A stretch of 64,000 nt of DNA, from NCBI GenBank assembly GCA_023105745.1, contig JALGQZ010000001.1, positions 47,243,662 through 47,307,661 on the forward strand, in the 5' to 3' direction. The notes under the pieces were generated by a model. It ran no database searches and had not been told where the DNA came from. It saw nothing but the letters and a program-made list of their open reading frames with translations. This stretch comes from Austropuccinia psidii. Lineage: Eukaryota > Basidiomycota > Pucciniomycetes > Pucciniales > Sphaerophragmiaceae. Made by a program: the position numbers and the translations under genes. Of the stretch, positions 15,149 through 58,726 are shown in pieces; within the stretch, counting starts at the first letter, position 1; each line of letters starts with the position of its first letter.

Positions 15149-16976
15149 TGTGAGCCTTAGAGGTAATTTCATATACCCAAAAGACCACAAATATAAGAAA
15201 TAACATATTAATATAAATAAAATAAATTTATTTATATTATTAAAATAAAAATCAAAATATGAATATAAAATTATATTAAAAATAAAAAATTAATCACAAT
15301 TTAAAAATAAAAATATATTAAATTTTATAAGTATAAAATTACATTTATACTTAAAAAAATTAGGTAAAAATGAAATTTTAACAAAACTGTGAAAAAATAA
15401 ATAAATTTGGAAAAAAGTTAAATAAAAATTATTATAGCTTTTTATCCAATAAATAAATACATAAAAATTATTTCACCATTGGATTCCTCATAAAAAATCA
15501 GGTGGGGTCACCTCTGAGTGAAATTCTTGTAACTCAACTCTAAATAAGCTTAAATTAAGTTTTTAGTATTTTCAATACAAAAGTTGAAAATCCTCAAAAC
15601 CTTAATTTAATTCACACCACATGTGGTGTTAACCATCAATTTTTGTGTTAAAATTGAGGTGTTGTGTTTAGTTTAGAAGTTATGAGGAATTGAAGTATTT
15701 TCAATTGAATTCAATTGAAATGTCGAAATGTGCGCGTGTATTACATAAGTGAACTTTGATTTACATATGAGGTGTCAATTATTACTGTATTGTACTGTAC
15801 AATTGAATTGAATTACATATGTAAATTATAAGTATAATACCTGATGAGGAATTAAAGGAAAAATAAATTGGAAAGATTAAATTTGGGGGGGAAAAGGAAC
15901 TCCAGCTCTAAGGGGGAGCTAGACCCCCAAAATCCTTGCTGACAGGCGTGGGATGTCAAAATTCACGCAAAAGTTCATCACTTTTGGCCTGGAATTCAGT
16001 TACAGGGTCTGTGGACTCAATTGATGATGAGGTTTTGATACCAACTGGGGTAGTTTTAGCTGTTGCCAAGAGGGTAAAACTACCCTTAAGATAAAACAAC
16101 CATAGTAAAAACAGTTTTAACTGGTTTCTACGCCTCTTACACACATTCTGACGTGTTTTGAAGGCTCTAGGCTTGGTATTGCTATAGTAATGGCTGATTT
16201 AAGGGTCTAAAATGGCTAAAAATGGCTTAAACCAGCCCTTTTTGGTCTAAACCATGGTTCAATGATGCCATAATTGGATTTTTTGTTGTCAGACTGTTTT
16301 TCACGACTGACAAGAGTAAATTTTACTTTTGGAGTAAGAGAATTGATGGCTATAAAAGAATGTCTTCTTTGCCCCACTTTTCTCTTCATGTTAGAATCTT
16401 TTCCTTTTATTAATTAGTTTAAACACTGTTAAACCAATCAATCAAAGATTCCAACCACCATTTTTAAATAATTTTAATCCTTTTAACCACGTGAAAAAAT
16501 CATTATAATCATTGTTTGTAACTCTTATAATCATTTTTACCCCTGAACCACCCCAAAAGTGAATTAAAGCATCTTTCATCACTGTAAACTTTGTCACTTT
16601 GTTTCCAAATTCACTCTGGTCACTTTTGGGCATGTTTTCTCTTTAATATTCTTTTTAAAGACTTTGTTCTTTAATTAATTGCTTGCAGTTCTTTGCTCAA
16701 TTAATTCCAATTGAAATTTCTCTTGAAGAAATTTCTTTTGTAGCCTTAAAATATCTCTTGTAGAGTATTTTTTGGATAAATTTTTATTGTTGGTAAAACA
16801 ATAAATTTTTATAATATTATTGTTTTAGACTAATAAAGTTATAAACAATAAAATTGGCGTGTTTTCTCTTAAAAATAATATTTCATACTATTTTTAACTG
16901 AATTTTACCTTATACAAATTTTGAGTACAGGAAAAGTACTTGATTCTTAATCAAAGTTTCATATCCACACCTTACA
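15149..16976 (+). repeat. 5' LTR of E1
   Basis: This LTR of 1828 bp runs from TGTGAGCCTTAGAGG to CATATCCACACCTTACA. It carries the conserved TATAAAAG at 16351-16358. An ATTTTTATAATATTATTG string near 16800 is the intact version of the site used by H in S3. Confidence 0.93.
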
Positions 16977-16978
16977 TT

Positions 16979-16994
16979 TGGGGGCTGAGCCCTG
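16979..16994 (+). promoter_or_regulatory. Primer-binding site of E1 (diverged)
   Basis: TGGGGGCTGAGCCCTG lies two bases after the LTR. E2 and E3 both have TGGGGGCCTGGCCGTG at the corresponding place, so this copy has changed at several positions inside the site. The TGG start is expected for pairing with the CCA end of a tRNA. I cannot name the tRNA. Confidence 0.65.
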
Positions 16995-17200
16995 ATATTT
17001 TACCTGTGACATATTTTTTTTACTCTTTTGAAATCTTTTTTCTTATATTGAACAATTTAAAAACATATAAAAAATACTTATAATTCAAAAAATCCATAAA
17101 AAAATAACTTTTTTCATATTATAAGTGAGGCTTATATTTTTATTTCTTTTTTGAAATAACCTTGTTTTACTTAATTAATTGGCTTTTTCATTAATTTTAG

Positions 17201-18112
17201 TGTCTGACAACGTGGTAAGACAAGAAAACATTGAAACAGCCTCAACAGTAACCAGCATTATCCCTGCCGGTACTGTTAATTCTGATCATAATAGTACTGT
17301 TATTGTGACTCAAAATAACCAGCCTGAACCAATATCTTCTGAATTGATTAACTTGGACATAAGTAATACCCTTCAGAAAGCTAAAACGTTGTCCAATAGT
17401 TAGTTTGTGACGTAAAAATACTATTTTAAGCCTTTTTTAACCATAATTATGCCTTCAACCAGGTCAGGAGCCAGCTACAACCCCCCAAGCAGCTCCCAAA
17501 AAGGTAATAGACGTGATTATGGCAGAAGCCAACCAGGTACAGAAGGAAAAGGGTCAGTTGATGACTTCCAAACAACTCAATTGGGTCATTCTGAAGCTGA
17601 TAATACTATTTTACCTTCAAAAAGAGCTGACACCGCCACAACAAACCTCTGTGGACATATACAAAGCCAGCCACAGTGCATACAACAATGCACTTCAATT
17701 CAAGGAGTACCAGATCCTTGCAGACCTGTGGAAGAATTGCATGAATTCTTACCTGACAGTAAGAAAATTCTTGGGCCATCCCAACACTTGCAAATTGCTC
17801 AATGGATGGCATCCATTGATGGAGAAGAAAAACATGATGCTTTTGACACTAGAATGGAGGAAAAACAACCCTCCACCACCCAAACCAGTGCCAAAAACAG
17901 CCCCAGTGGCCAGCAGCAGCAATTCCAACGTGAAAAAGCAGCCACAAACTCCAAACAATGGCAAAGGGAAGGCACCAGCCCCAAAACCTTACAGCCAGGG
18001 CTACAGAATCCCAAAGATTCAGCAGGATGCCATGGAAAATGTATTTCAGATGGCCAGAACCATGATGGAATTACAGAAGAAGGAGGAAGCCAGATTAAGG
18101 TTCCAGAAATGA
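17201..18112 (+). CDS. E1 leader ORF spliced to ORF-A (protein overlapping Gag-Pol)
   Basis: Exons 17201-17398 and 17463-18112 join across a 64-nt intron (17399-17462, GTTAGT...CCAG), giving one frame from SDNVVRQENIE to RLRFQK. The first exon contains no ATG at all; it follows a splice acceptor (TTTTAG, 17195-17200) whose next bases are TG, so the start codon is probably made by joining an upstream A to this TG. The second exon (ORF-A) has VDIYKASHSAYNN, MNSYLTVRKF, a proline-rich part and GYRIPKIQQDAMENVF. E3 preserves much of this text (57708-57290), and E2 and E4 have a counterpart. It overlaps Gag-Pol in the -1 frame over its whole second exon. The role is unknown; a capsid-like or accessory protein is possible. 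Confidence 0.6.
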
Positions 18113-20432
18113 TTTCTGACATATTTGATTCCATCCCAGAGTTGTATAATGCTATAAATGACGTGAAAAAACATCTTTCTGATAAAAATGAAACCATTTG
18201 TAACAACATTAAAACAAACAACCTGAGTCTGTGCCAAATTAATGAAACACTTATGTGTTTTGAAAATGTTTTAATAACAATTAAAAATTCCAATAATGAT
18301 AATTCTTCTAACAATAAAATAAATGAACAATCTGCCATTATTAAAGAATTAACAGATAAATATTCTAAATTCAATATTGATGACATAATTGAAACAAGAA
18401 TTAAACAAGCCATAAATATTATCAAGACAGATAACAAGAAAGTCCTTGATGACATTTCAAATTCATTTACTGAAGTAAAGACATATACCATTGCCTTGAA
18501 AAAGTGTTTTGATGCTTCACAAGAAGAAGTATCAAAATTATCAATGAAATTGAATCAAGTCACTGCTGATAATACAAGACAGACAGAGTTATGGCAAGAA
18601 CTGACACATAAAGAAGACATGTATAAAACTGAAGTAATAAATTTAATACAAAGCTTCCAACATGAATACAGAAATTCCCAAAGGTGTAGCAACATTAAAA
18701 TGAATGACATTGAACAAATACTGAACACCTTACCAAGAATGTCTACACCTCTAAATCAAAATGAGGGCACAAGAATTCCAAATCCACAAGTATTGGATCC
18801 TGATAATTCACAATTAAAAAATGAATTATCCACTTCTTTTCATAACTTGGAACCATCAATGGGCCAAGCACTCTTGAAAGAAGTTCCAAAACTTAAAGAA
18901 TGGCCTCACTTCAGTGGCGAAGGAGAGTATGACCATATGGAATTCATTAGAGGTCTTGACATGATCAAAGAGGATTTTGAATTACCAGACAGATTGGTAA
19001 CAGCCAGATTTAACACCTTGTTTACCACATCAGCTCACAGATGGTACATCAAAATAAGACAAGCACATGGACACCAGAGTTGGACTTGGTGGAAAACCCA
19101 AATCATCAACAAATGGGCAAATGATGCTTGGAGGTTTAAAGTTGAAACAGCCTTTGAATCTGCCAAATTTAATGCTGATAAAGACAAAGCTTTACCATGG
19201 TTTTTCCAACAAAAGGAGAGATTAACAGCATTATATCCTGAGATGTCAGAATTTATGATCCATAGAAAAATTCTGAGACAATGTGGAGGTGACTTAGAGC
19301 ATGCTGTCAAAAGCAGGACTACTGAACAATCTTCAGCAGAGGATATTATCAATATACTAGAAGAAGTAACCACCAGAACCAAAATTGGTTCTAGTAGGGT
19401 GAATCTCAAAACAAGGTTTAATACACCTTGGAAAGATTCTGTGGACAAAAACCGCAAAGAAAATTCTAGTAATATTAAATATAAATCTGCAGATACAGTC
19501 AGAAAATTCCATATTTGCCAAAGCACCACCCATTTAGCCAATACATGTCCAAAAAGGGGGAAAATCAATGAAATTGACATTGAAAAGGGAACAGGTGTTG
19601 AAAAAGAAGACATAATTGAAGACAATTCATATGATAAGTCATCCATATTTTCTGAATATTCAAAAGATATAGAAAATATCAATGCCACTTTTGACATCAT
19701 GGAATCTTATTCCCACTTACCACAATTGAGCAATGGTCAAGTTGATTTATCAAAAGTTCAAGATGCACAACTTATGAAGACAAAACCAAACAGAGGAAAA
19801 GGTTATACAGCTGGTAACTCCTGTATAACAGAAGTGGTGATTGACAACAAGCCCACCAAACTTTTGCTTGACCCAGGAGCCTTCTGCTCTTGTGTTGGAA
19901 AATCCTTCCTTAAGACTTGTGTACCAAATTTTGAAGACCAATTGTTACCAATTGATGGTATAAAATTCAACAGTGCAAGTAACCCAATGAAAGCATTAGG
20001 AATCTTTGAGACCAATGTCATATTCCCACACAGAAATGGGAATTTAAGGATCACAGTTGAATTTGTTGTTATGGAAAATTGCTCTAGTACCCATTTTATA
20101 TTGGGAAATGACTATTTAATCATGTATGGGATAGATTTACATAATAACAAAGACAGATACTTTACAATTGGGGACAATAAGCGCCAGAAATTTGCCTTTT
20201 TACCATTTAAAAGACAAATTACAGTAAACAAAGTATCACCAGTCAACTTAGAGTTAGAAAAATTCAAGTCTGAACAGTTAAATGAGGCTGAGATAAGCCT
20301 TCATCTGACTGATAAACAAGAAAATGAACTTTCTTCCCTTTTGTATGACCACAGAGGAGCATTTGCTACAGACAAAGAACCTCTGGGAGCAATTATTGGT
20401 CATGAAGTTGACATCATTCTTAACATTGAGAG
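17449..20432 (+). pseudogene. E1 gag-pol, N-terminal block (Gag, degenerate zinc knuckle, protease)
   Basis: The frame opens at ATG 17449 (MPSTRSGASY, the fungal gypsy Gag start) and is free of stops until E2 cuts it at 20432. From about residue 220 it has a coiled-coil-like stretch, then the Gag core (LKEWPHFSGEGEYDHMEF, WTWWKTQIINKW). The zinc knuckle reads FHICQSTTHLANTC, so the first Cys is missing. The protease motif reads LLLDPGAFC where D(S/T)G is expected. FILGNDYLIMYGIDL and the linker LGAIIGHEVDII follow. Removing E2 and one GAGAG copy joins this block in frame with 30103 onward. The first 220 or so codons overlap ORF-A. Confidence 0.85.
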
Positions 20433-21864
20433 TGTCAGCCTGTGACTCACAACCAGAGCACAAGCATGACAGCCAAAATACCATAAACCAATGGTATAGC
20501 CAAAATACCACCAAAACATGGAACTGAGCCAAATTAGCTCAAAATGTATCAAAAGAAAGAGAAAACTCACCTCTTCCTGAAAATACAAGTCCCATCACCA
20601 TAGGACAAGAAATAACAAAGTTATTCCTGCTCAAAGTTATTGCTGAGCATAAACCTTAATTTTCACCTCTCATCTAAATTCTAGAAGGAGAGGCTTAACC
20701 CCATCAAATGGGTATTCAGAATGAAGCTCTAAGCCAGGGCTATCCAATGGTACCAGCCAAACTGAGCTAGCACCAGTATTACTTGAGTTATAGTCAAATT
20801 CAGACCAAATAAGGGTGAACAAAACATTCACCTGTCATCTAACTTTTACAGTTTTAGTGTGAGATACCTAAAGTGGAGTCTTTTTGGAAAGAGCACAATC
20901 AGGGCTATCTGATGGTGCCATCCATTTCCCCATAACTCAACTACAACAGAAGTTATTGGCCAAACAAGCTTAATACAGCTTTTGACCAGACCACGCCAAT
21001 GTACAAAAATACTTGTACATGGGATAACTTCGTCATATTTAATGATAACCATGTCAAGTTGGGTACCATTGTGTAGAGCTCATACAGAGCTACTCAATGA
21101 ACCAAATTTGAGCTTGATATCTCAAAAACTGACAGAGCTATGACCATTTTAAGGTCAAAATCCCACCTGCTGTCAGATACAGCCTTACCATGGGATAATA
21201 TCCCATAACCATGAATATGAGGTGTCAAATGGACGAAGAAGCATGTTTTTACTTCAATACCTCATATTTCAGTCAATACTGGGGTCCCATACAGTTTCTG
21301 TACAGCATTCTATGCGTCATACACGTCAGAATCAGGCTGTGAGGTCCCCAGATGAAAATTTTCACCCTGTATTGGTGAAAACTGCCCAGATGTGGTTTCA
21401 AAACCACATCTGAGCCCAATACAGGGTATACAGGCTGTTTGCAAACCACAACCCTGTCATAGAGAGTGAAAATTCTTCACTTCCTCTACGTGGAAAGGTC
21501 TAGCAGCCTTTCCACCTCAATTTCAGGATAAAAGGAGGGCTTTTCACAGCCAAAAACCTTTCCTCATCCTGCTCTTGAATAACCTACGTAGTAAACTGTC
21601 AAAAACAGTTTTACTCTTGGTTAAATAATCAGGTATAATTATAATCTTTAATTATTGTAGACTTTATTATTGTAATCCAACAGATAAAGCCTGCACCCAG
21701 GGTTCTCAATAGCGCTCACCACCACTATTTCTCAATAGTAGAACCCTTTTATCTTATTATAAACCCTTATAAATCTTTTTTTTAAATCATTTTCTGTCGT
21801 GTCACATACACAGTTAAAGTTGTAATTAGCCTAGTTATACCTTTATCATAGTATCATCCTGACA
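20433..21864 (+). repeat. 5' LTR of E2
   Basis: It runs from TGTCAGCCTGTGACTCA to TATCATCCTGACA. It has a two-tier perfect inverted repeat at 21364-21427, a second hairpin at 21491-21514 (TGGAAAGG, 8-nt loop, CCTTTCCA) and a TATA-like GATAAAAGG at 21528-21536. Confidence 0.95.
21364..21427. promoter_or_regulatory. Nested perfect palindrome upstream of the E2 promoter
   Basis: An outer 12-bp stem (ACCCTGTATTGG, 21364-21375, with CCAATACAGGGT, 21416-21427) encloses an inner 12-bp stem (CAGATGTGGTTT, 21387-21398, with AAACCACATCTG, 21401-21412) around a 2-nt centre. It lies about 100 bp upstream of the TATA-like box. The same structure is at 29597-29660, and a close equivalent is in E4 (about 43237-43299) and E5 (about 60080-60145). 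Confidence 0.8.
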
Positions 21865-21910: not shown

Positions 21911-22459
21911 GTAAGTCTTTTCTATTTTTTATGACTTATTAACACATTGTTTTATCCTTTTTAGGCGTAATTTCTATTTAAATATATATTTTTTATATAT
22001 TTTTACCTTTTTTTTAAATATACTCATATTATAAGAGTATTTTTTACGTGGTTAACACCCACAGTAATTTATTATTTTTGGCGTGTTTTGCATATAAAAA
22101 CACATAAGCCACTAATAAAGTCCTGTATTCTTGACTGACTAAGGACACCTCTTACTGAAAAACCATCAGTTGAGGCGTGGTCAAGTGTATTGTTAATTCA
22201 ATAACACTTGTATACAAACCACTTTTACAGAATACACTTGCAAACCACAAGTGTATCTGAGGGATACTGACACACAAACAGTGTGACAGGACACCATAAG
22301 CTGTATTTTTGACGTGAAATTGTTAATTCAATTACACTGTCATTATACAAGGGCATACTGTAATAATATACAAGCCCAGAGGCCATTCTTAGACGTGCAA
22401 AACCAGCCTTTTAAGAAGTCTTAACTGACATAAGCCCTCTTTTTCCTGTTTTGATTCAG
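21911..22459 (+). other. Candidate leader intron of E2 that builds the start codon
   Basis: A consensus donor (CAA/GTAAGT, 21911) and an acceptor (TTTTGATTCAG, ending 22459) bound 549 nt. Joining 21910 (A) to 22460 (TG) makes ATG GAA GAA AAC, the first codons of an ORF that otherwise contains no ATG. Corresponding acceptors AG/TG are at 17199-17202 in E1 and 58210-58207 in E3. I infer the splice from sequence alone. Confidence 0.5.
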
Positions 22460-23204
22460 TGGAAGAAAACTACATCCCACTTGAAACCCAGTCACAGGCC
22501 AACACACCAGTGACACCCTCAGAACTAGAGGGCAGCAAGGGTAAAGGAAAAAGGCTTAGTGAAGGCCTCATTACAGCCAAGAAGTGGACACCAATAGCCA
22601 CTCAGAGGAGTAGAAAACCACGAAACTCTGCTTCAATACAAGGTAAACCAACCTTAACCACTTGTACAGGGAAGATTACAATTATTAACCCAGTTGTAAC
22701 CTCCAAAGGCAAACTGCCCAAATCAGCAGATAACAAATTTGTACAAGGCACAGTCAAAGGTAAATACCCTAAGAACATAAAGTTTTTGACTGCTTGCAAA
22801 CACTGATATGTCCCCTGCATACCTCAGAGACCTTGGCTTCCAAAGGAACCAGCCAGAGAATAGAGCAGGAATGTCTAGAACCAGAAGACCTGAAAGAAGA
22901 CACATTGGACACAGTGGTGGATGGCAAAACAATGAGGGAGATAATATCAACCTTGCCATTCACACTCCAATTCAACAGAAGCCTCAAACCAGAGGACTGG
23001 AAGGATATGGATCAAGTTCTTCAAATCCACCAACTCCTCAAAGATTTGTTTCAATGGAGCATGGACAACAAGAGGTTCAACCTAGCAACTCACTGGCCAG
23101 AACTGGGATCAAGTTGCCAGAAGATCTGTCTCAAAGAGATAGACTTCAAGGACCTTATGGTAATCACCAAGGATTGGAACCCTACCAGGCAGCACAGAGG
23201 ATAA
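22460..23204 (+). pseudogene. E2 leader ORF spliced to ORF-A, frameshifted by a deletion
   Basis: Leader exon 22460-22759 (EENYIPLETQSQANTP) joins at 22828 across a 68-nt intron (22760-22827, GTAAAT...CTCAG, CTGAT branch-like) into ORF-A (TLASKGTSQRIEQE, LPFTLQFNRSLKPEDW, WSMDNKRFNL). ORF-A stops early at 23204. E4 has a longer ORF-A (to 49360), and comparison shows that 22 nt are missing in E2 near 23193. After the deletion the remaining ORF-A text (QRIKENQATIQAIEEQL to EVHKNQK) continues in the other frame up to 23506. Its function is unknown; the counterpart in E1 is at 17463-18112. Confidence 0.6.
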
Positions 23205-25527
23205 AGGAGAACCAAGCCACTATCCAAGCTATAGAAGAACAGTTAACCCAGACAGGGCCTACTCAGATTCCTTCAGGTTCACAAGGAGCAAGCCAAATCA
23301 GCTCTCCAGTGGCTTCACACCATTCAGAAACCAGCAGATCAGTGGCCAAGAGTCACCATTCTTCACAATTCCAGGAAGTTTCCAGGAGAAGACAAGGCAA
23401 CAAGGGCAAGAACAAAGCCTCCTTCAACCAGAGGAGGAAAGAGTCAGATCCCATTATCCAGAAGCTGTTAGATTTGGTAAAAGAAGTACACAAGAACCAG
23501 AAGTAGTTGTAAACCACTCTAGAATCAGTAGTCCTAGTAATAGAAACATTACCCCCACTCAGACTGAAAATAACATTATCACATCTGAGAGCAACATCAA
23601 CAGTGACACACTGTGGTTACAAATGTCCCAATATGCTGAGCAATCTGCAAAGCAGGCTCCAGAATTTGCAGCTGCCCAAGAGAGGATGAGAAAAACTCAA
23701 GCCTCATTGGAGCAGATAGTTAAAAACCTTCAGGAAGGATATGCTCAACTGAGCAAAGCCTCTGAAGAAACCAACAAGAGACTGAATCAAGTCTCTGAAG
23801 AACAACACCATAGCAGCAGGGACAGGGAGTGTCTGAACCAAGACATCAACAAATTGTTTGATGCCTACCATAGCTTAAAGCCCCAACCACAAGGCCAAGC
23901 TATGGAGAATCCATATCAACCAGATGACATCAAACCAGATGCCATGTTGTTGAATAAGGCAAGATCTCCATCACAATACCAGGATGGAGATGGCATGTCT
24001 TATTCAGAGAAGGAAGCCTTGAAACAGCTTCCTGAGGCCTCAAACTGGCCCAAATTCTCTGGATCAGGGGAATATGATCATATGGAACTCATAGATTATA
24101 TTGATGGACTCTTCATTGATGTACCAAGCATACCAGATTACTGGATTGCTGCTAGACTGAATACTGCATTTAAAGGTCATGCAAGTATATGGTACACTGA
24201 AATGAAAGAAATCCATGGCAGAAGAAATTGGCCATGGTGGAAGAGTCAAATAATCCAAAAGTACAGTAATGGAACTTGGATATGGCAAAAGACCATGTCA
24301 TTTGAAAATGACAAATACTCTGTGGACAAAGATCCATATGAGTGGTGTCTTAGACAGTCTAAAAGACTTAAAGCCATTGATCCTCAAATGAACATTCAAA
24401 TGAGGAATCATAAGCTTCTGACACAACTGCCAGGAGAACTAGAACATGCAGTAAAGTGCAGATGCAACCAAAATTGCACTCTAGATGATATAGCCAATAC
24501 CTTACAAGACATAAGGAAAAGGACTAATATAGGGAAATTCACCCCATATAGAAGCAATAGTTTCAAAGAGAAACAACCTTTCAGGGTAGAGTTTAAAGAC
24601 AAACCCAGAGAAAGAGTGGCAGAAGTGGCAAAGAAGAAGAATTCTTGTCACAATTGTGGTTCAACAGACCACTATGCCAACAACTGTCCAAAAGCAAAGA
24701 AGAAAGTCTATGCTATAGAAAAAGTCCCTGAAGAAGAACCTCCAACAGAGGATTCTGAATCAGACTCTATGGGAGATGCCATCAGAGAACTATCTGATGA
24801 TGATCAAGACCCAAGAGAGGAACTTCTAGTGGAATACCAAGAGGAAACCCCATTGGAAATCCAGGATATACAGTTGGAAGCAGGAATGCCACAGGATACT
24901 GCCAACAAGAACTTGTGCAAACACACACAAGATGCACAAACATTCCTGGTTACACCAACCAAAGGAATGGCATATATACATGGAACAGCCACAAAAATGA
25001 CTGTATGTATTGACAATGCTCAGCACCGACTGATCATTGACAGTGGAGCACATTGCTCCATAGTGGCCAGAAATTATCTGGATAGCCACTTCCCAAACTG
25101 GGAAAAACAGCTCTTGCCCACTAAGGCAAAGAACTTTAAGAGTGCATCTGGAAAGATGACCTCTATTGGGACAATTATCAAAGAGATAATTATACCCCAC
25201 AGAAACGGTAATATCAGACTCAACCCAGAGTTTGTAGTGCTTGAAGATGCCCACATCCAAGGGATTTTACTGGGAACAGATTACCAGAGGATGTATGGCA
25301 TAGATATTTACAATAGTAAAAATAGGCATATTACCATTGGTACTAACAAGGAAAAGAAATTTTCTCTTGATATATACCAGATATCTTCTCAGGACCCACT
25401 GGAAGAACTTCTGAAAGAATTCAGAGAGGGACAGTTTAGCACTACCCTCACCAGTAAACAAAAGCTAAGTTTACTGAAGATGCTGAGGAAGAATAGACCA
25501 GCATTTGCCATTGGTGAAGAACCATGA
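22808..25527 (+). pseudogene. E2 gag and protease part of Gag-Pol
   Basis: The Gag-Pol frame opens at ATG 22808 (MSPAYLRDLGF), which lies inside the second intron just before its acceptor. It is thrown out of frame by the 22-nt deletion near 23193, and is open again through 23209-25527; the first ATG in that stretch is 23623 (MSQYAEQSAKQ). It contains a coiled coil, the Gag core (WPKFSGSGEYDHMEL, WPWWKSQIIQKY), an intact CCHC knuckle (CHNCGSTDHYANNC), an acidic linker and an intact retropepsin motif (LIIDSGAHCS, GILLGTDYQRMYGID). A TGA at 25525-25527 ends it; E4 has a Leu codon there, and the same frame continues in the next block, so it is a nonsense mutation. Confidence 0.85.
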
Positions 25528-28500
25528 GGCAAGATCAAAGGCCATGATATAGAACTATATCTGGATGTAGAAAGGCCTTATCCACGCATGTTAAGGAGAC
25601 CTCCTTACCCAGCAAGTCTGGAGACCAGGAAAGAGATTGAGAAACATATCAATGAACTCCTGGACATGGATGTCATTAGGAAGATTGGACATAATGAAAT
25701 GATGGAAATCACCACTCCTGTCCTAATCACCTGGCATTATGGCAAGTCTAGATTGTGTGGAGACTTCAGAGCCCTGAATAACTACGCAAAAGCAGACAGG
25801 TATCCTATACCAAGGATACCTCATGCCTTGGATAAATTGGCCAAAGCCAAATACATAACCAAGATGGATTGTATGAAGGGCTTCCACCAAAATGGAGTTA
25901 AACCAAACTCCATGAAATTACTCAGAATAATATGCCATATGGGCATATATGAGTACACCAGGATGCCATTTGGCATCAAGAATGCACCAGCCCACTTCCA
26001 AAGGATGATGGACACCATATTTCAAGAAGAAATAATGGAAGGCTGGATGGTAGTGTATATTGATGATATCATTATATACTCAGAGACATGGGAAGACCAT
26101 GTACAATACATAGACAGAGTGCTAAGTAAATGTACACCCATCAATCTGAAAATTTCACTTAAAAAGTGTAATTTTGGCCAACAAGAGCTACTAGCTCTAG
26201 GACACAAAGTCTCAGGCCTTAGTCTGGCAATTGACCAGAACAAAGTAGCAGCAGTACTGCAAAAGCCAGTACCAAAGAACATCAAAGAGATGCCATCTTT
26301 CCTTGGATTTGCTAGCTACTATAGAAACCACATCAAAACCTTTGCCCACATAACTAGTAGTTTATACAAGTTATGCTCAAAGGATGTAGTTTTTGAAATA
26401 ACCAAAGAAAGGAGGGATGCAGATGAGAGGATCAAATATGAGCTCACAAATGCACCTGTGCTCATCTTGCCTGACTTTGAACTACCATTCAAGTTATATA
26501 TAGATGCAGCATGCAGCCAAGGCTTGGTAGCAGCCCTTCACCAAAGACAAATTGTGGATGGTGAACCAAGAGAAGGTGTAATATGTTGCATCTCCAGGCA
26601 GCTAAAAGATTCAGAATCCAGGTATGGGGCCACCCAGACAGAATGTCTATGTCTAGTCTGGGCTCTAGAAAAACTCCATTATTATTTGGAGGGTGCAGTC
26701 TTTGAAGTCTACACAGACTGTACAGCCTTGAAGTCTTTACTAAACATGAAGACTACTAATAGACACATGCTGAGATGGCAAATAGCCATCCAGGAGTATA
26801 GAGGGAACATGACCATCATATACAAAGAAGGTAAAAGCCATACCAATGCAGATGGCCTTAGCAGATGGCCACTGGAAAATGTCAAAAGCAATCCAGCTTA
26901 TGACCCTGAAGTTGCTGCAAAAATTCCTATCCATTTTATGGAAATAAATAGGAAGAAGAACTTCAGATTCTCTGAATGGGCACCAGGGAGTGGTACCCTT
27001 GACAGTGGAAACACTGATTCAGAAGGGACAGAAACCCCCATACTGGGAATAAGTTCCTCAGCACTGCACAATGAATTTTTCAATGCAGTGCTGAAATCAT
27101 ATGCTAAACACAAACAGTGTAGCATACTACTCCAACTCCTTCAACAAAAATACAGGAGCCCAGAACTGGAAACCCAGCTGGAGGAACCCTGGTTGAGGGC
27201 CTATAAGGACAATAAATTCTTCCTTATAGATGGCCTGATTTATCACAGAGACAAGCACACCAGTGCACTCACAGTGATAGACAGAGACCACATCTCTTTA
27301 ATCCTGCAGGAATGCCATGACTGCCCCTACATTGGACACATGAGTGAAGACAGGACTAAAGAGAGGGTAGCAAGCACAGCTTGGTGGCCCAAGTGGGAGC
27401 AAGAGTTGAGTGAATACATCAACACTTGTGAAAGATGCCAAAAGGCAAATAGAAAGCATGGGAAGAAATATGGGTTGCTTCAGCACATAGAAGAACCCAA
27501 ACACCCATGGGAAACCATCAACATGGACTGGGTCACAGGACTTGTCCCAGGAGGCAAAGAAAACTACAATGCCTGCTTAATCATAGTTGATAGGTTCAGC
27601 AAGAGCATGAGATGTCTACCATGCCATAAAGAGGACACAGCCATGGACACTGCTCTGTTATTTTGGAATAACATCATATCCACCTGTGGAGTCCCTAAGA
27701 TCATAATCAGTGACAGGGACCCAAAATTTACATCTGAATTTTGGACCAATTTATATGACATGCTTGGCACCAAGATTGCTTTTTCCACAGCTTACCGTCC
27801 ACAAACAGATGGCCTAGCTGAGAGGATGATCCAAACAATGGAGGACATCCTCAGGAGGTTCTGTGCCTATGGCATGGAATACAAGGACCATGAGGGATAC
27901 ACCCATGATTGGGTCACCCTCTTACCAGCAGTCCAACTGGCTTATAATACAAGCCAGCACTCTACCACAGGAAAAACACCTGCACTGGTAGAGAAAGGGT
28001 GGAATCCCCTGTTACCTGTGGATCACTTGAAGAAAAATCTTCTGACCATCCACCCCACAGCCAAAGACTTCCATGATATGTGGAAGAAAGCCTGTGATAC
28101 TGCTGCCAAATGCATAGCGGAGGCCAAAGAGTATAACAAGCAGAGGTGGGACAAATCACATATGGAACCTGACTTCAAGGAAGGGGACCAGGTGTTAGTA
28201 TCTACACTGAACTTTAACAATCTCAAAGGACCTAAGAAAATGAGAGACTCATTTGTAGGGCCCTTCACTATCATTAAGTTGATAGGGAAGAATGCAGTAG
28301 AAGTCAAGCTCACTGAGGAGTTTTCTAGGAAACACCCAGTCTTTCCAGTAAGCCTGGTCAAACCATACTTCCAAACAGAGGAGGATAAATTCCCCTCCAG
28401 GAAGAAAAACATCACTCCACCAGAAATAGTGGAAGTAGAAGACTCTCCTGGACCTGTGAGTAAAATCATCAGGGCCAGAAAAATCAGACTTAATGGGAAG

Positions 28501-28641
28501 GATCAGGGACAATATCTAGTCAGATTCAAGAACCAGACAGCTGACAAAGACAAATTGTTGGCAGAGGATGCCATACCAGATGGGAACCTTCATCTAAGGA
28601 GATTCAGAGCCTCTAGCAGGACTGAACAGTCTCATCAATGA
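25528..28641 (+). CDS. E2 pol: reverse transcriptase, RNase H, integrase, chromo-like tail
   Basis: This block is in frame with the gag part, separated only by the TGA. Counting from the Met at 25588, RT has [30 protein letters not shown] and YIDD (157-160). RNase H follows with [11 protein letters not shown] and [10 protein letters not shown], then DGLSRWP. Integrase has an HHCC finger (HDCPYIGH and CERCQ) and the DDE core ([24 protein letters not shown]). [10 protein letters not shown] and a chromo-like end ([14 protein letters not shown]) complete it. The 1017-aa stretch is free of stops and all catalytic residues I can check are present, so the enzymes look intact. Confidence 0.92.
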
Positions 28642-28665: not shown

Positions 28666-30097
28666 TGTCAGCCTGTGACTCAAAACCAGAGCACAAGCAT
28701 GACAGCCAAAATACCATAAACCAATGGTATAGCCAAAATACCACCAAAACATGGAACTGAGACAAATTAGCTCAAAAGGTATCAAAAGAAAGAGGAAACT
28801 CACCTCTTCCTGAAAATACAAGTCCCATCACCATAGGACAAGAAATAACAAAGTTATTCCTGCTCAAAGTTATTGCTGAGCATAAACCTTAATTTTCACC
28901 TCTCATCTAAAATCTAGAAGGAGAGGCTTAAACCCATCAAATGGGTATTCAAAATGAAGCTCTAAGCCAGGGCTATCCAATGGTACCAGCCAAACTGAGC
29001 TAGCACCAGTATTACTTGAGTTATAGTCAAATTCAGACCAAATAAGGGTGAACAAAACATTCACCTGTCATCTAACTTTTACAGTTTTAGTGTGAGATAC
29101 CCAAAGTGGGGTCTTTTTGGAAAGAGCACAATCAGAGCTATCTGATGGTGCCATCCATTTCCCCATAACTCAACTACAACAGAAGTTATTGTCCAAACAA
29201 GCTTAATACAGCTTTTGACCAGACCACGCCAATGTACAAAAATACTTGTACATGGGATAACTTTGTCATATTTAATGATAACCATGTCAAGTTGGGTACC
29301 ATTGTGTAGAGCTCATACAGAGCTACTCAATGAACCGAATTTGAGCTTGATATCTCAAAAACTGACAGAGCTATGACCATTTTAAGGTCAAAATCCCACC
29401 TGCTGTCAGATACAGCCTTACCATGGGATAATATCCCATAACCATGAATATGAGGTGTCGAATGGACGAAGAAGCATGTTTTTACTTCAATACCTCATAT
29501 GTCAGTCAATACTGGGGTCCCATACAGTTTCTGTACAGCATTCTACGCGTCATACACGTCAGAATCAGGCTGTGAGGTCCCCAGATGAAAATTTTCACCC
29601 TGTATTGGTGAAAACTGCCCAGATGTGGTTTCAAAACCACATCTGAGCCCAATACAGGGTATACAGGCTGTTTGCAAACCACAACCCTGTCATAGAGAGT
29701 GAAAATTCTTCACTTCCTCTACGTGGAAAGGTCTAGCAGCCTTTCCACCTCAATTTCAGGATAAAAGGAGGGCTTTTCACAGCCAAAAACCTTTCCTCAT
29801 CCTGCTCTTGAATAACCTACGTAGTAAACTGTCAAAAACAGTTTTACTCTTGGTTAAATAATCAGGTATAATTATAATCTTTAATTATTGTAGACTTTAT
29901 TATTGTAATCCAACAGATAAAGCCTGCACCCAGGGTTCTCAATAGCGCTCACCACCACTATTTCTCAATAGTAGAACCCTTTTATCTTATTATAAACCCT
30001 TATAAATCTTTTTTTTAAATCATTTTCTGTCGTGTCACATACACAGTTAAAGTTGTAATTAGCCTAGTTATACCTTTATCATAGTATCATCCTGACA
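28666..30097 (+). repeat. 3' LTR of E2
   Basis: It has the same 1432-bp length as the 5' LTR with about 17 substitutions and no net indel. The nested palindrome is at 29597-29660. It is followed by GAGAG and then by the resumed gag-pol of E1. Confidence 0.95.
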
Positions 30098-33065: not shown

Positions 33066-34889
33066 TGTGAGCCTTAGAGGTAATTTCATATACCCAAAAG
33101 ACCACAAATATAAAAAATAACATATTAATATAAATAAAATAAATTTATTTATATTATTAAAATAAAAATCAAAATATGAATATAAAATTATATTAAAAAT
33201 AAAAAATTAATCACAATTTAAAAATAAAAATACATTAAATTTTATAAGTATAAAATTACATTTATACTTGAAAAAATTAGGTAAAAATGAAATTTTAACA
33301 AAACTGTGAAAAAATAAATAAATTTGGAAAAAAGTTAAATAAAAATTATTATAACTTTTTATCCAATAAATAAATACATAAAAATTATTTCACCATTGGA
33401 TTCCTCATAAAAAATCAGGTGGGGTCACCTCTGAGTGAAATTCTTGTAACTCAACTCTAAATAAGCTTAAATTAAGTTTTTAGTATTTTCAATACAAAAG
33501 TTGAAAATCCTCAAAACCTTAATTTAATTCACACCACATGTGGTGTTAACCATCAATTTTTGTGTTAAAATTGAGGTGTTGTGTTTACTTTAGAAGCTAT
33601 GAGGAATTGAAGTATTTTCAATTGAATTCAATTGAAATGTCAAAATGTGCGCGTGTATTACATAAGTGAACTTTGATTTACATATGAGGTGTCAATTATT
33701 ACTGTATTGTACTGTACAATTGAATTTAATTACATATGTAAATTATAAGTATAATACATGATGAGGAATTAAAGGAAAAATAAATTGGAAAGATTAAATT
33801 TGGGGGGGAAAAGGAACTCCAGCTCTAAGGGGGAGCTAGACCCCCAAAATCCTTGCTGACAGGCGTGGGATGTCAAAATTCATGCAAAAGTTCATCACTT
33901 TTGGCCTGGAATTGAGTTACAGGGTCTGTGGACTCAATTGATGATGAGGTTTTGATACCAACTGGGGTAGTTTTAGCTGTTGCCAAGAGGGTAAAACTAC
34001 CCTTAAGATAAAACAACCATAGTAAAAACAGTTTTAACTGGTTTCTACGCCTCTTAAACACATTCTGACGTGTTTTGAAGGCTCTAGGCCTGGTATTGCT
34101 ATAGTAATGGCTGATTTAAGGGTCTAAAATGGCTAAAAATGGCTTAAACCAGCCCTTTTTGGTCTAAACCAGGGTTCAATGATGCCATAATTGGATTTTT
34201 TGTTTTCAGACTGTTTTTCACGACTGACAAGAGTAAATTTTACTTTTGGAGTAAGAGAATTGATGGCTATAAAAGAATGTCTTCTTTGCCCCACTTTTCT
34301 CTTCATGTTAGAATCTTTTCCTTTTATTAATTAGTTTAAACACTGTTAAACCAATCAATCAAAGATTCCAACCACCATTTTTAAATCATATTAATCCTTT
34401 TAACCACGTGAAAAAATCATTATAATCGTTGTTTGTAACTCTTATAATCATTTTTACCCCTGAACCACCCCAAAAGTGAATTAAAGCATCTTTCATCACT
34501 GTAAACTTTGTCACTTTGTTTCCAAATTCACTCTGGTCACTTTTGGGCGTGTTTTCTCTTTAATATTCTTTTTAAAGACTTTGTTCTTTAATTAATTGCT
34601 TGCAGTTCTTTGCTCAATTAATTCCAATTTAAATTGCTCTTGAAATTTCTTTTGTAGCCTTAAAATATCTCTTGTAGAGTATTTTTTGGATAAATTTTTA
34701 TTGTTGGTAAAACAATAAATTTTTATAATATTATTGTTTTATACTAATAAAGTTATAAAACATAAAATTGGCGTGTTTTCTCTTAAAAATAATATTTCAT
34801 ACTATTTTTACTGAATTTTACCTTATACAAATTTTGAGGACAGGAAAAGTACTTGATTTTTAATCAAAGTTTCATATCCACACCTTACA
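33066..34889 (+). repeat. 3' LTR of E1
   Basis: This 1824-bp LTR pairs with 15149-16976 and starts and ends the same way. TATAAAAG is at 34268-34275. It is followed by TTTCT and then the N-terminal exon of the Tet-like gene of H on the minus strand. Confidence 0.93.
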
Positions 34890-35092
34890 TTTCTTTTATT
34901 ATTTAATTTGGTATTATTATCCTCATGATGTTCTATATTTGGTTTAGTCCTAACCATGACATCAAGAGGAGTAATATGAGCTTCATCATCTTTCAAATCA
35001 TTCTGATGATGTGCTGAGTCTGGTTTAGTCCTAACCATGACATCATCAAAATGATTGGAAGAATGAGAGAGAGGAGGAGATATTTTTTGCAT

Positions 35093-47200: not shown

Positions 47201-49774
47201 ATCCAGGAGCTCATTGATATGTTTCTCAATTTCGTTCCTGGTTTCCAGGCTTGCTGGATAAGGAGGTCCCCTCAGCATGGGTGGATAAGGCCTTTCCACA
47301 TCCAGATATAGTTCTATATCATGGCGTTTGATCTTTCCTAATGGTTCTTCACCAATGGCAAATGCTGGTCTGTTCTTTCTCAGCATCTTCAGTAAACGTA
47401 GTTTTTGTTTACTGGTGAGGGTAGTGCTAAACTGTCCCTCTCTGAATTCCTTCAGAAGTTCTTCTAGTGGGTCTTGAGAAGATATCTGGTATATATCAAT
47501 CAAAAATTTCTTTTCCTTGTTAGTACCAATGGTGATGTGCCTATTTTTGCTGTTGTAAATGTCTATGCCACACATCCTCTGGTAATCTGTTCCCAGTAAA
47601 AGCCCTTGGATGTGGGCATCATCAAGCACTACAAACTCTGGGTTGAGTCTGATATTACCCTTCCTGTGGGGTATAATTATCTCTTTGATAGTTGTTCCAA
47701 TGGAAGTCATCTTCCCTGATGCACTTTTCGAGTTCTTTGCCTTAGTGGGCAAGAGCTGTTTCTCCCAGTTTGGGAAGTGGGTATCCACATAGTTTCTGGC
47801 CACTATGGAGAAGTGTGCTCTACTATCAATGATCAGTGGGTGCTGAGCATTGTCAATACAAACAGTCATTTTTGTGGCTGTCCCATGTATATATGCCATT
47901 CCTTGGGTTGGTGTAACCAGGAATGTTTGTGCATCTTGTGTGTGTTTTCACAAGTTCTTGTTAGCAGTGTCCTGTGGCATGCCTGCTTCCAACTGTATGT
48001 CCTGGATTTCTAGTAGGGTTTCCTCTTGGTATTCCACTAGGAATTCCTCTCTTGGGTCTTGATCATCATCAGATGGTTCTCTGATGGCATCACCCATGGA
48101 GTCTGATTCAGAATCCTCTGTTGGAAGTTCTACCTCAGGGACTTTCTCTATGGCATAGACTTTTTTCTTTGCCTTTGGACAGTTGTTGGAATAGTGGTCT
48201 GTTAAACCACAATTGTTACAAGAATTCCTCTTCTTTGCCACTTCTGCCACTCTCTCTTTGGGTTTGTCTTTAAACTCTACCCTGAAAGGTTGTTTCTCTC
48301 TGAAACTACTGCTCTTATATGGGGTGAGTTTCCCTATATTAGTCCTTTTCCTTATGTCTTGTAAGGTGTTGACAATGTCATCTAGAGTGCAATTTCGGTG
48401 GCATCTCCATTTTACTGCATGCTCTAGTTCTCCTGGAAATTGTGTCAGAAGTTTGTGATTTCTCATTTGGATGTTCATCTGAGGATCAATGGCTTTAAGT
48501 CTTTTAGACTGTCTAAGACACCACTCATATGCATCTTTGTCCACAGATTATTTGTCATTTTAAAATGACATGGTCGTTTGCCATATCCAAGTTCCATTAC
48601 TGTACTTTTGGATGATTTGATTCTTCCACCATGGCCAGTTTCTTCTGCCATGGATTTCTTTCATTTCTGTGTACCATATACTGGCATGACCTTTAAATCC
48701 AGTATTCAATCTAGCAGTGCTCCAGTAGTCTGGTATGCGTGGTACATCAATGAAGAGTCCATCAATATAATCTATGAGTTCCATATGATCATATTCTCCT
48801 GATCCAGAGAATTTGGGCCAGCTTGAGGCCTCAGGAAGCTGTTTCAAGGCTTCCTTCTCTGAATAAGACATGCCATCTCCATCCTGGTATTGTGATGGAG
48901 CTCTTGCCTTATTCATCAACATGGCATCTGGTTTGATGTCATCTGGTTGATATGGACTCTCCATAACTTGGCCTTGTGGTTGGGGCTTTAAGCTATGGTA
49001 GGCATCAAACAATTTGTTGATGTCTTGGTTCAGACACTCCCTGTCCCTGCTGCTATGGTGTTGTTCTTCAAAGACTATATTCAGTCTTTTGTTGGTTTCT
49101 TCAGAGGCTTTGCTCAGTTTAGCATATCCTTCCTTAAGGTTCTTAACTATCTGTTCCAAGGAGGCTTGAGTTTCTCTCATCCTCTCTTGGCCAGCTTTAA
49201 TTTCTGCAAACTGCTTTGCAGATTGTTCAGCATATTGGGACATTTGTAACCACAGTGCATCACTGTTGATGTTACTCTCAGATGTGACAATGTTATTTTC
49301 AGTCTGAGTGGGGGTAATGTTTCTATTACTAGGACTACTGATTCTAGAGTGGTTTACAACTACTTCTGGTTCTTGTGTACTTCTTTTACCAAATCTAACA
49401 GCTTCTGGATCATGGGGTCTGACTCTTTCCTCCTCTGGTTGAAGGGGGCTTTTTTCTTGCCCTTGTTTCCTTGTCTTCTCCTGAAATCTTCCTGGAATTG
49501 TGAAGAATGGTGACTCTTGGCCACTGATCTGCTGGTTTCTGAAAGATTTGAAGCCACTGGAGAGCTTATTTGGCCTGCTCCTTGTGAGCCTGAAGGAATC
49601 TGAGTAGGCCCTGTCTGGGTTAACTGTTCTTCTATAGCTTGGATAGTGGCTTGATTCTCCCTTATCCTCTGTGCCCTTGCCTCCAGGAGTCTGAACTTCC
49701 TGGTAGGATTCCAACCTTTGGTGATTACCATCAGGTCTTTGAAGTCTATCTCTTTGAGACAGATCTTCTGGCAA
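44252..49774 (-). pseudogene. E4 gag-pol, fragmented
   Basis: Open pieces on the minus strand, from the 5' side, are 49774-48560 (Gag with coiled coil and WPWWKNQIIQKY), 48544-47948 (CNNCGLTDHYSNNC knuckle), 47899-47168 (retropepsin, LIIDSRAHFS, so DSG is DSR), 47164-46565 (RT, YIDD), 46590-45946 (RNase H), 45955-45326 (integrase finger and core), 45286-44891 ([17 protein letters not shown]) and 44881-44252 (integrase end, chromo-like tail). It is closely related to E2 and E5 but has many stops and indels. The Gag frame is also stopped at a TAA where E2 has Gln (GGWQN). Confidence 0.9.
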
Positions 49775-50060
49775 CTTTCTCCAAGTTCTGCCCAGTGACT
49801 TGCCAGGTTGAACCTCTTGTTATCCATGCTCCATTGAAATGAATCTTTGAGGAGTTGGTGGAGCTGAAGAACTTGATCCATATAATTCCAGTCCTCTGGT
49901 TTGAGGTTCCTGTTGAGTTGGAGTGTGAATGGCAAGGTTAATATTATCTCCCTCATTGTTTTACCATCCACCACTGTGTCCAAGGTGTCCTCTTGCAGGT
50001 CTTCTGGTTCTGGACAAGCCTTCTCTGTCCTCTGGCTGGTTCCTTTGGAAACCAAGGTCT
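49360..50060 (-). CDS. E4 ORF-A (longest intact copy in family II)
   Basis: From the splice acceptor (50062-50061) the frame runs to the stop at 49360 without interruption. It has TLVSKGTSQRTEKA, LPFTLQLNRNLKPEDWNYMD, WSMDNKRFNLASHW, KEIDFKDLMVITKGWNP, a Gln-rich helix (AQRIRENQATIQAIEEQL) and a basic end (RRRQGNKGKKKAPFNQRRK). The Gag-Pol frame (49774-48560) overlaps it by 415 bp in the -1 relation. The first exon is off-window beyond E3. A basic, Gln-rich tail after a helical domain would suit a nucleic-acid binding capsid-type protein, but I do not recognise a family. Confidence 0.55.
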
Positions 50061-50119
50061 CTGAGGTATGCAGGGGACATATCAGTGTTTGCAAGCAGTC
50101 AAAAACTTTATGTTCTTAG

Positions 50120-57236: not shown

Positions 57237-57982
57237 TCAGATACTATTTTTAAGCTTTGTTAAAGTATTTAAAACATCAGGAGACAAGGTTATTTCTTTG
57301 GGAAATGGGGTTGTCTCATTCTTTGTTCCTCTTTGTCTTTGAATTCCATAAAAGTTCTGGCCATGTTGAAGACATTGTCCATGGCATCTTTTTGGATCTT
57401 GGGGATCCTGTAGCTTGGGGAATATGGTTTTCTCCAATTCTTTTTTTGTTCTTCTTCCCTTCTTGGGGAAGTGGGTTGACTTGGGGCTTGCTGGTCGAAG
57501 CTACTGAGGCTTCTTCCTTGGTTGCCTCCTTCTTTTTGGCATGATAATCCTTGATCTTTTCGATTTGCGGTTTGGATGATAGTGGATTCCATCCATTGGA
57601 GTATCTCACTATTTCCTGCTCTTTGAGGAACTTTTTCAGGATGTGCCAGGAGTTCATCACTCCTTGGTGTATTTGAGGCAACATTTCCCAATCTTTGTCC
57701 TTGTACACTGTGTAGTACTGTTTTTATTGGCTCATGTAAATGTCTATTTGAGCCCTCTGAATGTGATTTGTACCTGTTTTAGTCAGTCATACTTAGTTCC
57801 AATTCAGGTTCAGATATCATGGGCATTTCTTGGACTTGCCTTTGGGATAAGACACTTCCTTGTGTGGATTCTGTTCCACTGGGGATATTGCCCTTCCTTT
57901 TCCCTTTTGAGGAATCAATTCTACCTCTGAGTCCAGCTCCATCTGATTGGATGAAGTATTGGGAGCCTCTTCTGGTAGTCAT
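57237..57982 (-). pseudogene. E3 ORF-A and the overlapping start of Gag-Pol
   Basis: The Gag-Pol ATG is 57980-57982 (MTTRRGSQY), and its ACCAG codons double as the splice acceptor (57973-57972) of the second intron. The spliced frame (ORF-A, EEAPNTSSN...) has a TGA and TAA early on but then runs 57708-57316 with MNSWHILKKFLKEQ and NGWNPL, matching E1 ORF-A. A later indel moves the matching text (YRIPKIQKDAMDNVF) to the other frame (57691-57290). Both frames are thus recognisable but damaged. A segment at 57437-57237 (CHGQCLQHGQNFYGI) matches the Gag-Pol frame of E1. Confidence 0.65.
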
Positions 57983-58208
57983 ATTATAATAAAAATAAGA
58001 AATAAGAGGATTTCAGAACAGGAAATTTCTTATGGCAATTTATAAATGAGGTACTCACCTTCAGAGGCCTGAATGGTGGGTCCTGGAAAGTCCAATTTCT
58101 TGGCTTTCTTTCTTTTGGTAATTATTGGTGTTGGAGAACTTTGACAAGTTTCTTCCACCAATCTTTCAACAGTAGTTTGGTTATCCTCTTTTGGGTTGTC
58201 TTCAAACA
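57972..58208 (-). CDS. E3 leader ORF (first exon) and second intron
   Basis: On the minus strand an acceptor (TTTTTTAG, ending 58209) is followed by TG TTT GAA GAC AAC. The exon 58208-58059 has no ATG and reads FEDNPKEDNQTTVERL to GPTIQASE. It ends at a consensus donor (GAAG/GTGAGT, 58058) of an 87-nt intron that closes at 57972. The same layout is found in E1 and E2. The protein is acidic at the start and basic near its end; no family is recognised. Confidence 0.5.
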
Positions 58209-58221
58209 CTAAAAAAGACAA

Positions 58222-58726
58222 ACAAATATAAGTCTTTTATATAAAAGTGTTTTTTTGGTAAGATATGGCAATTTTTCACGTAAAAATTGCTTTTATATCT
58301 TTTTTTTATGGAAAAGGAAAAAAATGGGAATAATTAAAGATATGAAATTAAAAAGAATAAAATAACTTTTTTATTGGTTTTTAATATTTTTATTATTTTT
58401 TATGTTTTTATTTTTAAAGAATAAAATAAAAATGAGTATGATTCTTTTTATAAAATTAATTTATAATATAAAATTATTTTTAATTTATAAAATATCTTTT
58501 TTAATCACTAGACTCACTCAAAGAAAGTTTTTTCAAGTCTATGGATGTGAAAAACCATGTGTAAGACAGTACAATTGCTTTCCAAATGCCCCAATAGCTT
58601 TTAAAGACAATAAATATAAAATTATTATATAATTTTATGATTATAAGTATAATTTATTATTGGATAAACCCAATTAGAATCTTTTTAAAGTTCTTTTAGA
58701 GTAAATATCACGGCCAGGCCCCCAAA
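58222..58726 (-). other. E3 leader with primer-binding site
   Basis: The primer-binding site (58709-58724) has the 16 bases TGGGGGCCTGGCCGTG on the minus strand and lies two bases from the LTR. The rest is AT-rich leader with T-runs that probably form the leader intron. I find no convincing donor here, unlike in E2. No gene is visible. Confidence 0.65.

Follow-up and report, generated by a model that had tools for sequence, protein, structure and literature searches.

The 5′ parts of long terminal repeat (LTR) retroelements in the rust fungus Austropuccinia psidii raise the question of how two long open reading frames (ORFs) share the same DNA, which of them is the conserved gene and what decides which protein is made. 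This was investigated in a stretch of 64,000 nucleotides (the window; positions 47243662–47307661 of contig 1) from an assembly of 1,015,390,075 bases in 84 contigs. Transposable element (TE) coverage of the A. psidii genome is reported to be over 90 %, mostly from the Gypsy superfamily (PMC8063080). A sequence-only reading of the window had proposed that retention or removal of one short intron selects between Gag-Pol and an overprinted accessory protein, ORF-A. Comparison of the elements with further genomic copies suggests that splicing probably does choose between Gag-Pol and a leader plus ORF-A protein in these Ty3/gypsy elements, and points to ORF-A, rather than Gag-Pol, as the conserved gene of the overlap.

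Shared 5′ organization of three Ty3/gypsy families

Elements E1 and E2 lie on the plus strand and E4 and E3 on the minus strand. E1 has a 5′ LTR at 15149–16979 (plus strand) paired with a 3′ LTR at 33066–34892 (98.4 % identical; ends approximate), and E2, with LTRs at 20433–21864 and 28666–30097 (98.9 % identical), is nested inside it. The pol of E2 (25528–28641) has the Ty3/gypsy domain order, with RVT_1 at 74–228, RNase H at 316–424 and integrase parts at 585–642 and 659–758, and E1 and E3 pol were assigned to Ty3/gypsy through their similarity to it. Pol pieces of E1, E2 and E3 share 54–80 % amino-acid identity and the three are therefore related families. They had been described as two unrelated LTR families, and convergence of unrelated families on one layout is ruled out for pol by this identity.

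All three families have a common 5′ plan consisting of LTR, intron 1, leader exon, intron 2 and ORF-A. In each, Gag-Pol occupies the −1 frame relative to ORF-A, as the earlier reading had stated, and begins at an ATG within intron 2, just 5′ of the acceptor (17449 in E1, 22808 in E2 and 57982 in E3). In E1 (plus strand) the proposed intron 1 (17125–17200; TATTATAA/GTGAGG ... TTTTAG/TG, slashes marking splice boundaries) is followed by a leader exon (17201–17398), the predicted first coding exon of ORF-A, by intron 2 (17399–17462; GT-AG, 64 nt) and by the ORF-A main exon (17463–18112). The E1 Gag-Pol frame (17449–20445, plus strand) is interrupted by the nested E2 at about 20433. E2 (plus strand) has a proposed intron 1 at 21911–22459 (TTACAA/GTAAGT ... 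TTCAG/TG), a leader exon at 22460–22759, intron 2 at 22760–22827 (GT-AG, 68 nt) and an ORF-A at 22828–23204 that is shortened by a deletion in the window copy. E3 (minus strand) has a proposed intron 1 with an uncertain donor (58209–58517; TTTGA/GTGAGT ... TTTTTTAG/TG), a leader exon (58059–58208) and intron 2 (57972–58058; GT-AG, 87 nt). Its ORF-A may contain a third intron of 66 nt (57774–57839; AAAG/GCAAGT ... AACAG) before a last exon (57290–57773), the frame of which is broken in the window copy. This third intron, of the rarer GC-AG class, preserves the ORF-A frame, and the Gag-Pol frame continues across it. The three second introns had been predicted at these positions and lengths, and the GT-AG boundaries and the Gag-Pol ATG near each acceptor were all found. 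The layout had also been said to recur in E1, E2/E4 and E3; the plan is indeed shared, but only E1 is intact within the window and E4 lacks the leader.

Splice sites and ATGs were surveyed in 25 copies (6 E1-type, 13 E2-type and 6 E3-type, denoted by L numbers where outside the window), with E4 excluded for its missing leader; two L020 features were misaligned, and the L020 ATG and acceptor are visible in its sequence. The intron-2 donor GT was present in 24 of 25 copies, including 12 of 13 of E2 type and all six of E3 type, the latter also having the acceptor AG in 6/6. For intron 1, E1-type copies had the donor GT and the acceptor AG in 6/6 and AG/TG in 5/6, the donor reading TATAA/GTGAGG in five and GTGGGA in L015. 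The E2-type donor was present in all three copies in which it was seen, and AG/TG in 13/13. AG/TG was likewise found in all six E3-type copies, in which the donor is variable (GTGAGT, GTGACT in three copies, GTGGCT and GTAACT) and always preceded by A. The E3-type intron 3 had its donor in 4/4 and its acceptor in 3/4 of the copies looked at (L029–L032). The second donor of the window E1 (17399–17404) is GTTAGT and differs from the GTAAGT of all four other young E1-type copies, which makes E1 atypical for splicing tests.

Both reading frames are open beyond chance

In E1 both frames are open from 17465 to 18109, which bears out an earlier statement that they stay open together for over 600 bp; over this stretch the Gag frame contains no stop, compared with 19 for the third frame. 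The expectation was obtained by synonymous permutation of the ORF-A codons, counting stops in the Gag frame. In two sets of E1 permutations, of 20000 and of 5000, the Gag frame was never open (mean 7.6 stops); it was open in 0 of 5000 for the E2-type copy L011 (mean 8.7 stops) and in 0–2 of 2000 for E3-type copies, with averages of 5.5–8.7 stops across the tested copies. This indicates that the joint openness of the two frames exceeds chance. The coding strand is rich in A and poor in T where these ORFs lie, which lowers the frequency of stops and is the point in favour of open frames arising by chance or composition, with imaginary introns. That explanation is extremely unlikely, given that permutations retaining the ORF-A codons never gave an open Gag frame in E1 or L011 and that selection was detected on the leader and on ORF-A in separate comparisons.

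Within the window both frames are intact only in E1. A deletion near 23184 in E2 ends ORF-A at 23204 and breaks the Gag frame (two stops), leaving an open overlap of 415 nt (22790–23204). The 415 bp had earlier been ascribed to E4, in which the open stretches overlap by 460 nt (49360–49819). E4 has a complete, full-length ORF-A (49360–50115, minus strand; 251 open codons, including some before the acceptor) and a Gag frame (48560–49819, minus strand) with two stops that is open only from 49819 on; its similarity to E2 stops at 50123 (22765 in E2). In E3 the ORF-A frame is broken and a stop near 57780 interrupts the Gag frame. Six of 12 E2-type copies were scored, and both frames are open in L011, L033, L034 and L035, the other two being E2 and E4. 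Among E1-type copies, L041–L044 have no Gag-frame stop (4/4) and an ORF-A open over 221 codons.

Openness in the genome at large was counted by hand in the top-scoring 150 of 15766–40171 first-look candidates, and restriction to the best matches biases these counts upwards. ORF-A was free of stops in 150 of 150 matches to the E1 query, in that case over all 221 residues, and in 143 and 147 of 150 for the E2-type and E3-type queries, while the E1 Gag N-terminal frame had no stop in 146 of 150. Among the scored Gag N-terminal matches, 37 of 150 sit in a single open frame of 1975–2003 residues that includes the overlap.

Selection in the overlap points to ORF-A as the conserved frame

Each nucleotide change in the overlap was classed by its effect in both frames, in six comparisons representing five pairs of copies (L011/L020 was treated in two pieces owing to an insertion in L020). 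Changes nonsynonymous in Gag and synonymous in ORF-A amounted to 163/699, those nonsynonymous in both to 180/1631, those synonymous in Gag and nonsynonymous in ORF-A to 88/720, and those synonymous in both to 4/25. The resulting nonsynonymous/synonymous rate ratio was 0.47 for ORF-A (163/699 vs 180/1631; nominal P about 1e-13) and 0.90 for Gag-Pol (88/720 vs 180/1631; P=0.40). Omission of the two youngest pairs left the outcome unchanged (149/411, 155/961 and 72/420). Ratios from single comparisons ranged from 0.18 to 1.09 for ORF-A and from 0.64 to 1.63 for Gag. The sequence-only reading would have lost its basis if ORF-A were free of purifying selection, and such selection is present.

Comparison between families gave a similar picture. 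ORF-A of E1 and E3 is identical at 59 of 157 residues, with changes concentrated at third codon positions (72, 58 and 104 for L032; P=0.0008). In the Gag frame of the overlap, E1–E3 identity was 34–37 of 153 in three comparisons (the L031 stretch extending a few codons beyond the ORF-A stop), close to the 32.9–33.8 expected from ORF-A alone and not above that of the third frame (37–41 of 153). Beyond the overlap, the Gag-Pol frame is 41–49 % identical between E1 and E3. Conservation of the Gag-Pol frame had been claimed from the motif CHGKC/CHGQC, which is the one strongly aligned E1–E3 Gag patch in the overlap (BLASTP, 36 residues, E 1.8e-9). The patch has 14 of 31 identical residues against a null mean of 11.7, and 879 of 5000 redraws were as high (E1 vs L029 only). 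ORF-A conservation alone accounts for this; conservation of the Gag-Pol frame in its own right within the overlap is unsupported.

Since ORF-A is constrained and Gag-Pol amino acids are not detectably so, we conclude from these comparisons that ORF-A is probably the conserved gene and that the N-terminal extension of Gag-Pol, 73–76 % of which is P, Q, S, T, G, N, R, D, E or K, is overprinted on it and mainly needs to stay open. This reverses the earlier description of ORF-A as an overprinted accessory protein.

The leader is ATG-poor and its start codon is probably made by splicing

In the window copies of E1, E2 and E3 the leader ORF lacks an ATG in its own frame. That it codes for protein is shown by purifying selection in at least one comparison per family. 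For E1 and the E1-type copy L015, the ratio of the proportions of nonsynonymous and synonymous differences (pN/pS) was 0.21 in the leader frame (27 synonymous, 19 nonsynonymous), and the two alternative frames gave 1.58 and 2.83. For the E2-type copies L011 and L020 it was 0.40 (36 synonymous, 46 nonsynonymous) compared with 0.96 and 1.25, and across 12 E2-type copies shared leader variants were 19 synonymous:8 nonsynonymous vs 14:43 for singletons (P=0.0001). The E3-type pair L031 and L032 gave 11:3 in the leader frame and 2:12 and 0:14 in the others.

A start codon for this frame is probably made at the intron-1 splice junction. The intron-1 acceptor reads AG/TG, in the leader frame, in 24 of 25 copies, the exception being the old copy L015, and the TG following the acceptor together with the A preceding the donor means that splicing would create an A/TG start. 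The earlier proposal that the leader, once spliced, simply runs into ORF-A had overlooked the absence of an ATG from the leader itself. Gene models in a public annotation (P0003, P0017, P0029 and others) begin at MVRQ, at a point where the window (17210–17214) has ACGTGGTA. CpG decay to ACATG, as seen in L015, may have made false start codons and misplaced the annotated N-terminus.

On the unspliced RNA the upstream region is depleted of ATGs. Between the LTR end and the Gag-Pol ATG, E1 has none in 470 nt (shuffle means 7.4 by base and 7.2 by dinucleotide), E2 one in 941 nt (15.6 and 11.0) and E3 one besides the Gag ATG in 750 nt (11.7 and 10.4); with each type of shuffle, no more than 0.25 % of 2000 sequences had counts this low. 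In the survey, 15 of 25 copies had no ATG in the 403–519 nt upstream of the Gag ATG. This depletion indicates that the Gag-Pol ATG is, or was, the first or nearly the first ATG on the unspliced RNA, as judged from the genomic copies.

The depleted leader also bears on two other explanations. ORF-A could be a separate early gene expressed from spliced RNA, with Gag-Pol starting further downstream by reinitiation or internal entry and the open −1 frame being a relic or by-product. Such a downstream start fits the lack of clear constraint on the Gag-Pol amino acids of the overlap, but is improbable: the frame is open where permutation averages 5.5–8.7 stops, 37 of 150 matches keep a single frame of 1975–2003 residues through the overlap, and ATGs are depleted in the unspliced leader up to that of Gag-Pol. 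Alternatively, −1 ribosomal frameshifting could fuse ORF-A to Gag-Pol from spliced RNA, which would suit the −1 relation in all three families. A shift near the end of ORF-A requires neither an open −1 frame along the whole exon nor an ATG-poor leader, however, and inspection by eye found no slippery site shared by the three ORF-A ends, leaving this explanation very unlikely.

ORF-A proteins and public gene models

Homologues of ORF-A at E up to 0.001 numbered 567 for the E1 query, 538 for E2 and 505 for E3, in sets that may overlap. Austropuccinia psidii MF-1 is named for all of the best 120 of 567 E1 homologues, and for 119 of 120 among the best 120 of 538 (E2) and of 505 (E3). Profile comparison (probability 98.7 %, E 1.7e-16) and BLASTP (E 1.4e-30) both show homology between the ORF-A proteins of E1 and E3, which agrees with the earlier observation of conservation between the two. 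Among the listed homologues, 6 of 120 (P0010, P0030, P0052, P0062, P0094 and P0099) are labelled in UniRef with a name that starts ‘No apical meristem-associa’. A match to the corresponding Pfam entry (NAM-associated) at E up to 1 was absent in the best 25 of 41 families (62 E1/E3-type members) and in all 17 families (54 E2-type members).

The junctions predicted here recur in NCBI models built on another assembly, namely P0004, P0014 and P0042 (E1 type), P0133 and P0139 (E2 type) and P0254 (E3 type, intron 3). Some E1-type ORF-A models (P0040, P0042 and P0046) omit 24 codons in frame, corresponding to 17553–17624 of the window (GTCAGT...AAAAAG); these lie near the site of the third intron of E3 and are possibly an optional intron.

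No credible relative of ORF-A was found in Pfam or PDB, which leaves room for a structural rather than a regulatory role, as a second Gag-like or matrix-like protein, and the position of ORF-A directly before Gag would suit this. The zinc knuckle and protease matches belong to the Gag-Pol frame (E2 ORF 23164–25527), however, and a bulk protein made solely from RNA that lacks the Gag start would presumably be unusual, so that a structural ORF-A appears rather unlikely, though less so than either a downstream Gag-Pol start or a frameshift. A check for an arginine-rich RNA-binding stretch of the Rev type gave one basic cluster, KKNKKK, in the E3 protein only of the three.

Proposed mechanism

From the genomic sequence we infer splicing of both introns, use of A/TG as a start, the transcription start site and a function for ORF-A. 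Under the proposed mechanism, unspliced RNA, with its ATG-poor leader, would serve as genome and as Gag-Pol message, and its first ATG, inside intron 2, would start Gag-Pol. Translation of the ORF-A exon in the −1 frame would then give Gag-Pol a mostly polar extension, the amino acids of which are hardly constrained, if at all. Removal of both introns would drop the Gag-Pol ATG and create the A/TG at the intron-1 junction, and the doubly spliced RNA would encode a conserved accessory protein made up of the leader and ORF-A. What stands of the original proposal is thus a pair of overlapping frames, one needing splicing and the other read from an unspliced message; what does not is the single intron, as two are involved.

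If the protein is made, ORF-A may help the unspliced, intron-retaining genomic RNA to leave the nucleus or to stay unspliced; this is the most likely of its possible roles, and is put forward tentatively, by analogy with CERV and Rev. More tentative still, and doubtful as a whole, is a wider analogy with complex-retrovirus regulation, by which ORF-A would be a Rev/CERV-like switch protein that has no start codon until its RNA is spliced and that favours the export of unspliced Gag-Pol/genomic RNA or its retention, the Gag-Pol N-terminus would be a passive overprint, and Ty3 elements so regulated would have helped to build a gigabase genome.

Several observations weigh against the proposed mechanism. 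The comparisons of the overlap reuse reference copies, so that the nominal P values are too small. Constraint on ORF-A was not seen in the youngest pair, L011/L021 (21 differences; ratio 1.09), and Gag ratios of 0.64–0.77 in four of six comparisons make weak Gag constraint possible. In the overlap of 12 E2-type copies, shared variants and singletons (synonymous:nonsynonymous) did not differ significantly for ORF-A (10:12 vs 29:54, P=0.46) or Gag (4:18 vs 20:63, P=0.78), while they did differ for the third frame, the intended control (8:14 vs 12:71, P=0.03). Four other E3-type leader pairs lacked the contrast seen for L031 and L032 (1:5, 0:3, 4:5 and 11:14) and are probably dominated by recent change. 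Upstream ATGs, one to three in number, occur in 10 of 25 copies, and the intron-1 donor is convincing only in E1 and E2. The E2-type ORF-A occupies the same position but could not be linked by sequence with the ORF-A of E1 and E3. The NCBI models are predictions and supportive only, and others (such as P0003 and P0125) are built differently. Lastly, patterns resembling a leucine-rich export signal were no commoner than in shuffled proteins, being present in 554–904 of 1000 shuffles, and a Rev-like role is therefore without direct support.

Relation to known splicing-controlled elements

HIV Rev and similar regulators are made from spliced RNA and Gag-Pol from unspliced RNA, and the regulators of retroviruses lie mainly downstream of pol. 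The likeness to ORF-A is this division between spliced and unspliced messages; the difference is that ORF-A is 5′, and the two share no demonstrated homology or RNA-binding motif.

A closer parallel is CERV of Cer1, a Ty3/gypsy element of Caenorhabditis elegans, which is spliced, partly out of frame and required for export of unspliced RNA (PMC10309623, PMC3315495). Both are accessory proteins of a Ty3/gypsy element encoded at least partly in a frame other than that of gag, the splicing of ORF-A being predicted. One CERV exon is off the gag frame, and a stop inserted there left the GAG sequence unchanged (PMC10309623); in the same way, ORF-A lies in the +1 frame relative to Gag-Pol and overlaps it, with both frames open and ORF-A constrained. 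Full-length Cer1 RNA is described as having to bypass consensus splice sites for Gag-Pol. CERV evolves fast and is reported to have no obvious homology outside nematodes (PMC10309623). Unlike CERV, ORF-A is wholly 5′, shares no residues with Gag and has a start codon that is apparently made by splicing, and unlike in Cer1 the Gag-Pol ATG is inside an intron and ORF-A, not Gag-Pol, is apparently the conserved frame of the overlap. The function of CERV is demonstrated, whereas a role for ORF-A is proposed by analogy.

Small accessory ORFs before gag, reported to have low nonsynonymous/synonymous rates, are also found in the Drosophila MDG1 group (sORF1 and sORF2; PMC11952523). These lie upstream of gag on long transcripts in which no sign of splicing was seen, in contrast to ORF-A, which overlaps Gag-Pol and apparently needs splicing. 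Splicing is known from other LTR retrotransposons, BARE1 and copia producing a Gag-only message and Ogre splicing between ORFs (PMC6431247, PMC3735527, PMC7264820). Ogre and other plant elements share the possession of extra ORFs without known function. None of these systems is described in the cited portions of these sources as an overlapping, spliced 5′ accessory gene. No title or abstract in the open-access literature was found to describe such an arrangement in rust or other fungal elements. The principle is thus known in animals from CERV and Cer1, which are a partial precedent for an arrangement that had been called unknown from gypsy elements; the present elements depart from it in that ORF-A lies wholly 5′ with a start codon apparently made by splicing, the Gag-Pol ATG is in an intron and the frame conservation is reversed.

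Other reverse-transcriptase loci

The best 150 reverse-transcriptase matches in the genome include a long run at the same score (129.1 bits), often with an open frame of 1244 residues, which is probably a very homogeneous family. Eight such loci (L001–L008) were compared by blastn with six pieces of the window elements, and none matched.

Implications for A. psidii retroelements

If the proposed mechanism is correct, splicing-based control of an element, exerted through its own accessory protein, would extend to fungi, beside retroviruses and the nematode Cer1, and would operate in the Gypsy superfamily that is reported to dominate the A. psidii genome (PMC8063080). The overlap would be a case in which a conserved accessory gene constrains the DNA while the N-terminus of a structural polyprotein is the overprinted frame. 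It would also explain hundreds of A. psidii entries that are publicly annotated as ‘hypothetical proteins’, as reflected in the homologues found with each ORF-A query.
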